Origin: Nitrospira sp. | GTDB lineage: Bacteria; Nitrospirota; Nitrospiria; Nitrospirales; Nitrospiraceae | Reading direction: 5' to 3' | Length of the DNA: 64,000 nt | Assembly: GCA_030123565.1 (NCBI GenBank) | Contig: CP126122.1 | Location: 1,251,001-1,315,000 of the forward strand | Shown: positions 17,624 to 26,137 of the stretch, piece by piece | How the letters are laid out: the number at the start of each line of letters is the position of its first letter | How positions within the stretch are numbered: the first letter of the stretch is position 1 | Program-made: the position numbers and the translations under genes | The notes under the pieces: generated by a model | Told to the model about the DNA's origin: nothing | The model's database searches: none | What the model saw: only the letters and a program-made list of their open reading frames with translations

Positions 17624-17700
17624 GCGCCCGTAGCTCAGTCGGATAGAGCATCAGCCTTCTAAGCTGAGGGTCGCTGGTTCGATTCCAGCCGGGCGCACCA
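17624..17700 (+). tRNA. tRNA-Arg (anticodon UCU), integration site of the genomic island
   Basis: 77 bases with CCA encoded. Acceptor GCGCCCG (17624-17630) pairs with CGGGCGC before A-CCA. The D arm includes TAGCTCAGTCGGATAGAGCA; the anticodon loop CTTCTAA gives TCT; the T arm is GCTGG-TTCGATT-CCAGC. The 48 bases from 17653 to the CCA end are repeated exactly at 26090-26137, marking this gene as the attachment site. The tRNA stays complete because the integrating element brought an identical 3' half. Confidence 0.97.
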
Positions 17701-18856
17701 TGAAATCAATAGGTTGTGAAGCAGCCCCTCCAAGGTTACTCAGACCACTCCCGGTTTTACTCCCGGTTCGCACTTCCACCTGACTTTCTAGAGGCGAAGC
17801 AAACAAGCTGCCCTTGGCCACGGTCTCCTGCATGAAGCCGGGCGTCAGATGGCTGTACCGCGCCGTCGTTTTGATATCGCGGTGTCCTAAAAGCTGCTGC
17901 ACGCCGTAGAGACTCGCGCCGGATAATACCCGCCGGGTGGCTGCCGTATGCCTCAGGGAATGCCAGCTTGCTCCAACGATTCCGGCTCGCCGTAGCGCTG
18001 GGTCAAAGTGCCATTTGACAAATGAGCGTGCGTCCAGGGGTTTGAGAGGGTCTTTTCCGGGAAATACGAAAGGGGACTTCGTGAATGAATCCCACCCGGA
18101 GAGTAGCGCACATACCCCGTCGGTCAATGGCACATAACGGCTTTTCGAACCTTTGGGCATCGGTAAGTTGAGTACCCGATTATCCATGTCGATCTGCGAC
18201 CATCGTAGCTTAAACTGTTCCGATCGCCGCAACCCCGTTTCAATCGCAAATGCGACCATTTCCCAAACTTGCGGCTCCATCAAGTGGCGGAGGCGAGCAA
18301 TTTCGTCGTCGGTTAGAAACCGGGTTTTGATGGCCTCTGGAAAGAATTTCACGCCGCTCATAGGGTTGCGGTCAATCTTGCCGTCATTCACCGCCAGCGT
18401 GAGAACATGCCTTAGATAGGAGAAATATCTGTTGATAGTTGGTGGAGCCTTGCGCCTGGTTCCGTTAGCCTTCTTCAAGTCGTAACGTGCCTTCAGTTGT
18501 GTCTGAATCCGCCGTAAGTCTTCCGTAGAGATGTCCGCCAGGGTTCGATTCCCCAACAACAGTGACCAGAACCTGCCATACCGTCGTGAATTGGAGACGC
18601 TTCGATTCGAACAACCCTCAAGATGGCGAGCAATCCACGCTCGTAACGTGACCTGTTTTGTCTTCTTATACTTCTCTGGAAAGTAGGTTTCTTCACGCGC
18701 CTCGGCCTTGAGTCGGCCATACAGCGCTTTCGCTTGGCTCTTGTTGGTGGCACGGAACCATTTTTCCCGGCCGTTAATGGTTAACCGTACCCACCACTTC
18801 CCCGATCCCGCCGGCTTTTCGACGATGCCTCTATCCTTTCCCGCTTTTCTTGCCAC
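17651..18856 (-). CDS. int: tyrosine recombinase / integrase of the island
   Basis: 401 residues from a GTG at 18856 with AAAGGAG close upstream. The N-terminal arm-binding region (about 1-60, KWWVRLTINGREKWFRATNKSQAKALYG) is followed by a core-binding SAM-like domain (about 70-185) and a catalytic domain with Arg in ETGLRRSE, Lys in PKGSKSRYVPL, HSLRH, LGHRDIKTTARYSH and the nucleophile Tyr. The last residues (RPAGIEPATLSLEG) and the stop are read antisense through the tRNA-Arg gene, so the true C-terminus depends on whether the element is integrated. The arm-type repeat encodes RTGSKTGSG near the end. The start overlaps the end of the upstream zinc-finger gene by 26 bases. Confidence 0.95.
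   Translation of the reverse strand: MARKAGKDRGIVEKPAGSGKWWVRLTINGREKWFRATNKSQAKALYGRLKAEAREETYFPEKYKKTKQVTLRAWIARHLEGCSNRSVSNSRRYGRFWSLLLGNRTLADISTEDLRRIQTQLKARYDLKKANGTRRKAPPTINRYFSYLRHVLTLAVNDGKIDRNPMSGVKFFPEAIKTRFLTDDEIARLRHLMEPQVWEMVAFAIETGLRRSEQFKLRWSQIDMDNRVLNLPMPKGSKSRYVPLTDGVCALLSGWDSFTKSPFVFPGKDPLKPLDARSFVKWHFDPALRRAGIVGASWHSLRHTAATRRVLSGASLYGVQQLLGHRDIKTTARYSHLTPGFMQETVAKGSLFASPLESQVEVRTGSKTGSGLSNLGGAASQPIDFMVRPAGIEPATLSLEG
17653..17700 (+). repeat. attL: left 48-bp attachment repeat
   Basis: Identical to 26090-26137. It spans the anticodon loop, variable loop, T arm and acceptor 3' strand of tRNA-Arg plus CCA. The base before it differs between the copies (C here, G at the right end) and so does the base after, which fixes the limits of identity. 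Confidence 0.93.
17747..17771 (+). repeat. left arm-type repeat (integrase binding candidate)
   Basis: 25 bases identical to 25928-25952. Built of two tandem ACTCCCGGTT units separated by TT. It lies 46 bases inside attL and within the 3' end of the integrase gene. Confidence 0.6.
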
Positions 18857-19496
18857 GGTGGCTCTCCTTTCGCTCCCCGGTCTTCTGGGCCTCGCGCCAC
18901 TTTCTCGCCGCGACTCGGTTCTGGCAGCGCGGGTGGCAGTATACCTGGTCCCGTCTGATCGCTAAATAGATCTTGGCGCATTCCGGGCAGCGCCGAATGT
19001 AGTCCCCCGACTGGGCCAAGAGGTGTACAAAGCGGTACTCAAACTCTTTCGCCTTGCGTTTCGCGCTCACGAAGATTGTCCCGGTCTCCTCGGAGAAGCT
19101 GCCCGGTGATACTACGACCAGTGTCATCTGAGGAAAGGTGAAGGCGGTGTATCCCTCGTGCCAATAGCGCTCTAACTGTTCCAGGACTGCGGCCTGAATG
19201 TCCTGGGCTTCTTTGCGACTGGGAATGGTCTGGTAATTTTTGGCATTGGGCACTCCTTCTACGCTCCAGCCACTTTCCGGGGCCACCATCCCGCCGTAGC
19301 GTTCCCCCGTCTCATCCACAAAGGCCGCGACTTCAAACGCCACCAGCGTCCACTCTGTCGGTGTCAGGGTCTCTAGCTCCGTTTGCAGGAACTTAAGCAC
19401 CCATCCGACGGCGCCATCCGTCATCGTGCGGATGCGCTCGATGGCTTTTTGGTACTCCTGTTGGAATTCCTGCTCGGCTTTCGCCAGTGCGCTCAT
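18831..19496 (-). CDS. CGNR-like zinc-finger protein of the island
   Basis: 221 residues from the ATG at 19496, which has AAGGAG eight bases upstream; the open frame reaches 19586 but lacks support there. Helical N-terminus (KAEQEFQQEYQKAIERIR), a mixed middle region, and a C-terminal finger: CPECAKIYLAIRRDQVYCHPRCQNRVAARKWR at about residues 165-197. That spacing (C-x2-C, RRDQ, C-x3-C, then a basic tail) is the CGNR/ABATE type of zinc finger found in putative transcription regulators. Paired with the integrase by overlap, it may control integration or excision (inference). Confidence 0.65.
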   Translation of the reverse strand: MSALAKAEQEFQQEYQKAIERIRTMTDGAVGWVLKFLQTELETLTPTEWTLVAFEVAAFVDETGERYGGMVAPESGWSVEGVPNAKNYQTIPSRKEAQDIQAAVLEQLERYWHEGYTAFTFPQMTLVVVSPGSFSEETGTIFVSAKRKAKEFEYRFVHLLAQSGDYIRRCPECAKIYLAIRRDQVYCHPRCQNRVAARKWREAQKTGERKESHRGKKSGKG

Positions 19497-19602
19497 GCCT
19501 TTCGCTCCTTTCTCATGCTGAACCCTCTCCGTATTCCTGATCCCAACACTACTGAAAAAAGTGTCGGGCTGAAGGGTCGTCTTCATCTGAATTTGTTTGG
19601 CA

Positions 19603-19633
19603 AGTGTACCTCCTCACTGCTAATGCCTGTCAA
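19603..19633 (-). promoter_or_regulatory. possible leftward promoter for the zinc-finger/int operon
   Basis: Read on the minus strand, a perfect TTGACA (19628-19633) is followed after 19 bases by TACACT (19603-19608). The spacer is long, so this is tentative. It points toward the gene starting at 19496. Confidence 0.3.
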
Positions 19634-19698
19634 GAGTCATCACGCCTAAAAAATATGAGACGTGATCTCTTCGCAACCATTCTTCCAAGGAGGTGTCC

Positions 19699-19905
19699 AT
19701 GGTCAGTACAAAATTGATCACCATTCGAGAAGCGGCCAACCGGTTAGGGCTCAAGGAGAGCACGATCAGGAAATACATCCTGAAACGGCAGATCGCCTAT
19801 GTGAAGCCGTCCGTACGCGCCGTCCGGATTCCCATCGAGGAACTGGAACGGATTCTGGCTGCCGGGCTGAGGCCTGCCATCCCTCAAGCGGAGGCTGCCC
19901 GATGA
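19699..19905 (+). CDS. excisionase-like HTH protein
   Basis: 68 residues from the ATG at 19699; GGAGG (19688-19692) is six bases upstream. The sequence LITIREAANRLGLKESTIRKYILKRQIAYVKPSVRAVRIPIEELERIL is the MerR/excisionase winged helix: HTH, then a wing with conserved Arg and the closing I-P-x-E-E-L-E-R. Such proteins act as recombination directionality factors or repressors. Its stop overlaps the ATG of the next gene (ATGA), so the two are coupled. Divergent from the int operon. Confidence 0.85.
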   Translation: MVSTKLITIREAANRLGLKESTIRKYILKRQIAYVKPSVRAVRIPIEELERILAAGLRPAIPQAEAAR

Positions 19906-25876: not shown

Positions 25877-25927
25877 AATGAGGGGCTTTCAAGCTCCCTT
25901 GGATTAGGGAGGCAGTAGGGTTCTTTT

Positions 25928-25975
25928 ACTCCCGGTTTTACTCCCGGTTCGCTCCCAGTTTTGCTCCCGATTGCC
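25928..25975 (+). repeat. right arm-type repeats (integrase binding candidate)
   Basis: 25928-25952 is identical to 17747-17771 near the left end. Two further imperfect copies of the CTCCCGGTT unit follow (CTCCCAGTT, CTCCCGATT) up to 25975, giving four units. The array ends about 115 bases before attR. Confidence 0.6.
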
Positions 25976-26022
25976 AGTCCAACCTAATCCTACTTAATCC
26001 CACCTGCAAGGAAGATTTTCGC

Positions 26023-26052
26023 TTGGTTTGGCATTCGTTTAGGCGATACAAT
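26023..26052 (+). promoter_or_regulatory. possible promoter reading out of the island into the DUF748 gene
   Basis: TTGGTT (26023-26028), 18-base spacer, TACAAT (26047-26052), pointing through attR toward the gene at 26159. Without the island this gene would lie 21 bases after the tRNA-Arg CCA. Prediction only. Confidence 0.35.
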
Positions 26053-26089
26053 CACGCTTAATCTTTATTAATATCATTGGCTTCTGGTG

Positions 26090-26137
26090 AGCCTTCTAAG
26101 CTGAGGGTCGCTGGTTCGATTCCAGCCGGGCGCACCA
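26090..26137 (+). repeat. attR: right 48-bp attachment repeat
   Basis: Exact copy of 17653-17700, a partial tRNA-Arg (3' half only). It lacks the 5' acceptor and D arm and cannot form a tRNA. Confidence 0.93.

Follow-up and report, generated by a model that had tools for sequence, protein, structure and literature searches.

The window analysed here is a 64,000-nucleotide stretch of a Nitrospira sp. genome (GenBank assembly GCA_030123565.1, contig CP126122.1, positions 1,251,001 to 1,315,000), which contains an 8,485-bp insertion in a tRNA-Arg(UCU) gene. The insertion is delimited by an exact 48-bp direct repeat, and the left copy forms the 3' portion of the complete tRNA (Table 1). Two co-directional genes (int and P0002) are followed by three divergent ones, encoding a Xis-like protein, the Rep-like protein P0006 and the small protein P0007; a non-coding block and then the cargo genes come next. 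The insertion is regarded as a complete integrative element, which probably behaves as an integrating rolling-circle plasmid.

Table 1. Features of the integrative element (positions in the window).
Feature	Position	Strand	Evidence or remark
tRNA-Arg(UCU), target gene restored at the left end	17624..17700	+	ARAGORN; Rfam RF00005 75.2 bits
int, tyrosine recombinase P0001, frame crosses attL	17651..18856	-	PF00589 5.7e-30; phrog_1 6.4e-69
attL core, exact 48-bp repeat	17653..17700		repeat search and junction alignment
Left arm-type repeat ACTCCCGGTTTTACTCCCGGTTCGC	17747..17771		exact copy at 25928-25952; putative arm role
P0002, putative zinc-binding protein, overlapping the start of int	18831..19586	-	zf-CGNR E 0.01, below cut-off
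P0003, Xis-like helix-turn-helix protein	19693..19905	+	TIGR01764 36.4 bits (cut-off 28.8); PF12728
P0006, Rep-like, divergent rolling-circle initiator	19902..20615	+	pRKU1 Rep tblastn 6e-6; profile comparison 86.6%
P0007, small Cys-rich protein, 3' of rep across the family	20617..20859	+	conserved position
Predicted double-strand origin (dso)	21055..21148	+	conservation and three hairpins; putative function
Cargo region, dso block to right arm repeats	21149..25923		conservation drop 0.93 to 0.37; right border observed
P0004, divergent Upx-family antiphage protein	21232..24951	+	PADLOC Upx 2.6e-151; NF042954 559 bits
P0005, DUF5677 protein	25139..25876	-	PF18928 1.6e-26
Right arm-type repeats	25928..25975		kept in elements of the same type
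attR core, exact 48-bp repeat	26090..26137		repeat search and junction alignment

The first-pass annotation had proposed both ends and the 48-bp repeat, and these were correct to the base. The empty site was surveyed by comparing the N-terminal part of the DUF748 protein encoded downstream with 41 genomes, which gave 27 loci. A chance repeat is excluded, because the 48 bp are the 3' part of the tRNA and an intact tRNA-Arg(UCU) lies immediately 5' of the DUF748 gene in eight of the 27 loci (L087, L089, L090, L094, L100, L101, L102 and L104). Nine loci, including that of the window, hold the 3' tRNA fragment only (two are interrupted by a contig end); in L105, the complete tRNA lies some 0.9 kb upstream, with a fragment at the DUF748 gene, and in L096 the fragment is located farther upstream. 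The remaining eight loci, four of them from outside the genus, showed no match. The nearest relative by DUF748 protein (G006, 92%) has an uninterrupted site, and the joined flanks of the window align with it through the junction over 1,013 bp (92.6%, gapless). The annotation had also suggested comparing this locus among relatives, and no examined locus carried the genes of the element without the second tRNA fragment. Its reading as a complete island is thus supported: with an intact recombinase, terminal repeats and an empty site in relatives, the element is, judged by its sequence, a site-specific tRNA integrative element. The inner repeat pair (17747-17771 and 25928-25952) is compatible with arm-type integrase sites.

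The intact integrase and excisionase-like genes noted earlier were confirmed by Pfam, NCBIfam and PHROGs matches, and it also holds that none of the seven called genes matches a conjugation or phage-structural family above the curated cut-off. The description of the cargo as unrecognised genes was right only in part, as one of them encodes a divergent Upx protein and another gene encodes a divergent rolling-circle Rep. The Upx homologue P0004 aligns with the PADLOC profile over residues 14-1215 of 1239 amino acids, which is a full-length match, yet its NF042954 score is far under the equivalog cut-off of 1900 bits, and its antiphage role is putative. A P0004 relative was found in only one of the 61 genomes searched, that of the window itself. 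Relatives of P0002 occur in most family members (51-91% identity); P0007 had no family match in Pfam, PADLOC, NCBIfam or PHROGs. The int stop codon spans the core border (17651-17653) and is completed by host tRNA bases. The gene has 401 codons in the integrated state and 411 (10 more) in the modelled circle, and therefore the C-terminus of the integrase could possibly be state-dependent.

Among plasmids, P0006 matches only the Reps encoded by pRKU1 and pRQ7, two 846-bp Thermotoga plasmids (tblastn E 6e-6). The pRKU1 Rep belongs to PF23343 (2.4e-15), and profile-profile comparison of this Rep and three plasmid relatives with the P0006 family gave a probability of 86.6%. In the joint alignment, H92 of P0006 corresponds to the first histidine of the HUH (histidine-hydrophobic-histidine) motif, and Y146 to the motif-3 catalytic tyrosine, which is invariant in the family. 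P0006 had no match in PDB sequences, Pfam, NCBIfam, PADLOC or phage records, and a PHROGs match at E 0.2 only; its best PDB profile match (SIRV1 ORF119) had an E value of only 0.02. P0006 is regarded as a distant relative of the pRKU1 rolling-circle Rep. The near-identical sister plasmid pRQ7 was reported to replicate by rolling circle (PMC3398313).

The non-coding block downstream of P0007 folds into three hairpins (21060-21101, 21104-21120 and 21127-21143) with a folding z of -4.5, and none of 200 shuffles folded equally well. It contains TTCACTTGAT, in common with pRKU1, which has TTCACTTGATA close to the beginning of rep. Among the most invariant bases are those of the weakly paired stretch CTTCACTTGAT, which also matches pRKU1. 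A block ending in CCCCCGCTTCACTTGATCTATATGGTCAAAGTAG was detected in 45 of the 53 rep-bearing loci; five of the eight others are on contigs that terminate within or soon after rep, and L077 has a one-base insertion. Over the 94 bp, the mean majority identity is 0.93 (41 distinct copies), compared with 0.67 upstream and 0.37 from +38 onward; L060 retains the long first hairpin with a largely different sequence. The block is predicted to be a double-strand origin, with a nick at 21129/21130 (CACTTG^ATC). Its TTCACTTGAT is similar to CTTGATA, a nick site from the literature (PMC10378824). A 22-base pattern of the block matched 55 sites in 23 of 61 genomes, all within the genus; the reversed pattern matched none, and no match was found in IMG/VR. 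Part of these sites have no rep nearby. For example, the dso copies of L153, L156 and L157 lie near tRNA-Arg(UCG) or tRNA-Cys and lack rep; these might be decayed or non-autonomous elements. An open reading frame (ORF) of about 116 amino acids after P0007, at first counted as cargo shared by 15 members, overlaps the block; it was rejected as cargo and treated as non-coding.

Relatives of P0006 were found in 24 of the 61 genomes searched, all of the same genus, with up to six matches per genome and three in that of the window. Of 295 genomes sampled from the phylum, 16 had a match: 13 within the genus and three elsewhere in the same family, two of which were short or weak. Named records with P0006 relatives are mostly Nitrospira. 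For five loci (L037, L043, L046, L055 and L063), the source assemblies bear the names Nitrosomonas, Verrucomicrobiales or Nitrosospira; part of the contigs are 3-7 kb long, and therefore mislabelling or misbinning is possible. The family includes 26 elements with att repeats of at least 40 bp and sizes of 4.9-10.7 kb, and the core repeats are 45-48 bp in the majority of members. Copies in one genome occupy distinct sites (six of six in G015, four of four in G010, three of three in the genome of the window). The contig L001, retrieved through an IMG/VR match, was considered as a virus, but this was set aside: the final 5.9 kb of its 18.8 kb, which were examined, read as an element of the tRNA-Arg(UCG) type with another integrase next to it. 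No description of the family was found in literature searches, judged by titles and abstracts.

The similarity of the integrase to P0001 correlates with the target site. It is 91-96% for tRNA-Arg(UCU) elements, 53-55% for tRNA-Arg(UCG), 54-56% for tRNA-Gln(UUG), about 49% for tRNA-Cys(GCA), 33% for the single core derived from tRNA-Lys(UUU) (L053), and about 31% for type E elements, which use the 3' terminus of a gene for a small protein and whose non-tRNA core had no Rfam match. A further class adjacent to tRNA-Asn has rep genes 80-86% identical and no relatives of P0001-P0003; in L058 (6898-8520), a serine recombinase beside tRNA-Asn is joined to the same rep-P0007-dso core, together with ImmA-like and helix-turn-helix genes recognised by eye. 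There are thus four tRNA target genes with full evidence, in addition to tRNA-Lys, the protein-gene end and the tRNA-Asn serine-recombinase class. The recombinase and the site vary among members while Rep and dso stay. In L053 and L044, a second integrase-like frame begins at the downstream att core, which suggests tandem elements.

Among 35 tyrosine-type elements the Rep proteins are mostly 95-100% identical, whereas the rep DNA identity is 85-100% (median 88.9%). After seven near-clonal tRNA-Cys elements were dropped, shuffle and codon-position statistics were computed for the other 28. Third codon positions hold 26,093 of the 30,079 pooled rep differences, and rep is therefore under strong purifying selection. 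The identity at fourfold sites is 0.62 for rep and 0.475 for the host DUF748 gene (13 genomes). On these protein, DNA and fourfold-site (62%) identities, the idea of one recent sweep of the core was discarded. The proposal that the core follows the host was also rejected, as rep identity is 0.8887 within a genome and 0.8880 otherwise (shuffle p 0.39). Independence of the core from the integrase type did not come out cleanly, as rep pairs of the same type are slightly closer (p 0.041).

Movement of the family is recent, because two 9,377-bp elements (L070 in G003 and L079 in G021) have zero mismatches although their upstream flanks are 80% identical. Similarly, L038 and L080 are 100% identical over 8,708 bp with flanks at 93% and 91%, and L074 and L084 show one difference in 8,706 bp with an upstream flank at 94.5%. 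Such near-identity means that elements have lately moved between genomes classed as different species. Together with the empty sites in relatives, this movement of sister elements supports the earlier suggestion that the element of the window may still be mobile.

The cargo begins directly after the dso and is mostly unique to each element. Of 145 cargo-bay ORFs of at least 90 amino acids, 87 are without a relative in any other element; the count takes in likely spurious ORFs, and its largest group corresponds to the dso region. A defence scan covered 50 of 70 listed cargo proteins of at least 170 amino acids, as well as those of the window. PADLOC matches at E 1e-9 or better were obtained for 17 of the 50, and one or more defence-family matches at this level are present in 14 of 27 elements (Upx counted). 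As a host control, ten host proteins of the window gave none at E 1e-9 and one at E 6.6e-7. The matches include RT_UG14, PDC-S46, PDC-S19, type IIG restriction with PDC-M41, PDC-S06 with a NucC-like nuclease, and SIR2-like, PifA-like and OLD/AriA-like proteins; several of these are candidate (PDC) families. The cargo thus often consists of putative antiviral defence genes. Other cargo was also observed. In seven near-identical tRNA-Cys elements, three common ORFs lie between P0007 and the dso. One of them is a chlorite dismutase family gene (L038:13446-14294, at the same place in the six others), and two ORFs upstream of it resemble, by eye, a response regulator and a kinase. A tRNA-Gln element carries a fructose-1,6-bisphosphatase gene (PF01950; L035:14259-15362).

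Sequence comparison establishes the exact ends, the empty sites, the family with its conserved core and block, the turnover of cargo and the recent interspecies spread. The steps that probably connect them are as follows. The integrase, steered by the Xis-like protein, would recombine the two tRNA copies and release a circle. P0006 would nick the predicted dso, and the circle would be copied by rolling-circle replication. The integrase would then put it back into the tRNA gene, either in the cell of origin or in a different one. The stretch from the dso to the right arm would serve as a cargo bay (here Upx and the DUF5677 gene), whose content is replaced fast while Rep and dso persist.

Phage satellites and tycheposons are small, encode an integrase, use tRNA sites and carry variable cargo. 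The Nitrospira element resembles them in these respects; unlike the satellites, it has no recognised packaging or phage-interference gene among its seven genes in the library scans. Several satellite families and tycheposons have been named (PMC11389934). The pSAM2-type actinobacterial integrative and conjugative elements (AICEs) are described as carrying int, xis and RepSA, with recombinases and Reps exchanged between elements (PMC3218068). Like the Nitrospira elements, AICEs use a tyrosine (rarely serine) recombinase and, according to the same source, mostly tRNA 3' ends (PMC3218068). AICEs also have a rolling-circle initiator, related to the phiX174/pC194 group, and the divergent P0006 would be its putative counterpart. 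The Nitrospira element differs in that it has no FtsK-like Tra among its seven genes, its Rep is without the second HUH histidine, its host is not an actinobacterium, and a defence-rich cargo lies immediately past the dso. By analogy, it would work most like the int-xis-rep module of an AICE minus the transfer genes. The plasmids pRQ7 and pRKU1 share a homologous Rep and the TTCACTTGAT sequence; however, they are free plasmids with rep only, lack integrase and cargo, and have the canonical HMH motif. In the DSO-gene-SSO (double-strand origin, gene, single-strand origin) model described for staphylococcal qacC, cargo also adjoins the dso and is swapped between replicons without a transposase; there the cargo is conserved and the rep variable (PMC5037232), whereas the Nitrospira elements show the reverse. 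This model is stated by its source to lack experimental evidence (PMC5037232).

Several observations weigh against an integrating rolling-circle plasmid. The second HUH histidine is replaced by phenylalanine (H92-I-F94 for H-x-H) in all 18 aligned members and the lysine following the motif-3 tyrosine is missing, and therefore P0006 is possibly not an active nickase. AlphaFold gave no confident fold from the 18-row family alignment (predicted local distance difference test score 42), and the model was not used for a fold search. The elements carry CTTGATC or CTTGATT where the published nick site is given as CTTGATA (PMC10378824), two loci (L041 and L054) have no recognisable block despite the contig continuing, and no transfer gene was detected among the seven called genes. 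One account built on the histidine loss, seen in 18 of 18 members, is that rolling-circle function has been lost, so that P0006 is a DNA-binding regulator, the block a transcription boundary, and the element a plain int/xis island. The block does sit between operon and cargo, a possible terminator position; however, its weakly paired stretch is among the most invariant bases and matches pRKU1, and the terminator scan listed no site there, the promoter and terminator scans both performing at chance level. This account is considered unlikely.

It is somewhat less likely still that P0006 works chiefly as a relaxase, with the hairpin block as its origin of transfer; the element would then be moved by a conjugative helper and show little vegetative replication. 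The kinship of HUH-type Reps with relaxases speaks for such an integrative mobilizable element, as does movement between species in spite of missing mating genes. Integrative mobilizable elements with or without a relaxase are described as common (PMC11389934). However, no relaxase family matched the window proteins in Pfam, PADLOC, NCBIfam or PHROGs, the nearest relatives of P0006 are plasmid Reps, and the block resembles a dso nick site. A phage satellite, in which Rep amplifies the circle and a helper phage packages it, would fit the size, tRNA sites and defence cargo, but is improbable, as the core contains no capsid, terminase or phage-interference family in the same libraries and was not found in 50,697 phage records, nor the dso in IMG/VR.

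The tRNA-Cys element in the genome of the window (L066 and L067) spans the record start, as the end and start of C1. It matches L074 over 6,987 bp without mismatch, but about 1.6 kb are missing: AGTAGG, with which the dso block ends, is followed directly by sequence that starts some 30 bp short of the attR core, so that both the cargo and the right arms are lost. Likewise, L070 and L074 match at 94.5% up to the dso end and diverge beyond it. This repeated change at the dso border suggests origin-linked exchange. The origin might then be a cargo port: through breakage or strand switching linked to Rep and located just past the dso, the element would shed genes of any kind and take up others between the dso and the right arm. 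This proposal is tentative and rather doubtful, because conservation that merely stops at the origin end would look identical.

Nitrospira are key nitrite oxidisers and complete ammonia-oxidising (comammox) bacteria, and the exact borders of these elements turn each cargo bay into a list of candidate defence genes. The cargo port, if true, would be a transposase-free, integron-like gene-capture platform, mostly for defence systems, on which both cargo and recombinases, the latter even of different classes, could be swapped around an unchanging Rep/dso core with a non-canonical H-x-F site. The family provides a natural case of a conserved replicon whose origin-adjacent DNA is replaced repeatedly, and through it the gain of cargo by small elements becomes directly testable.

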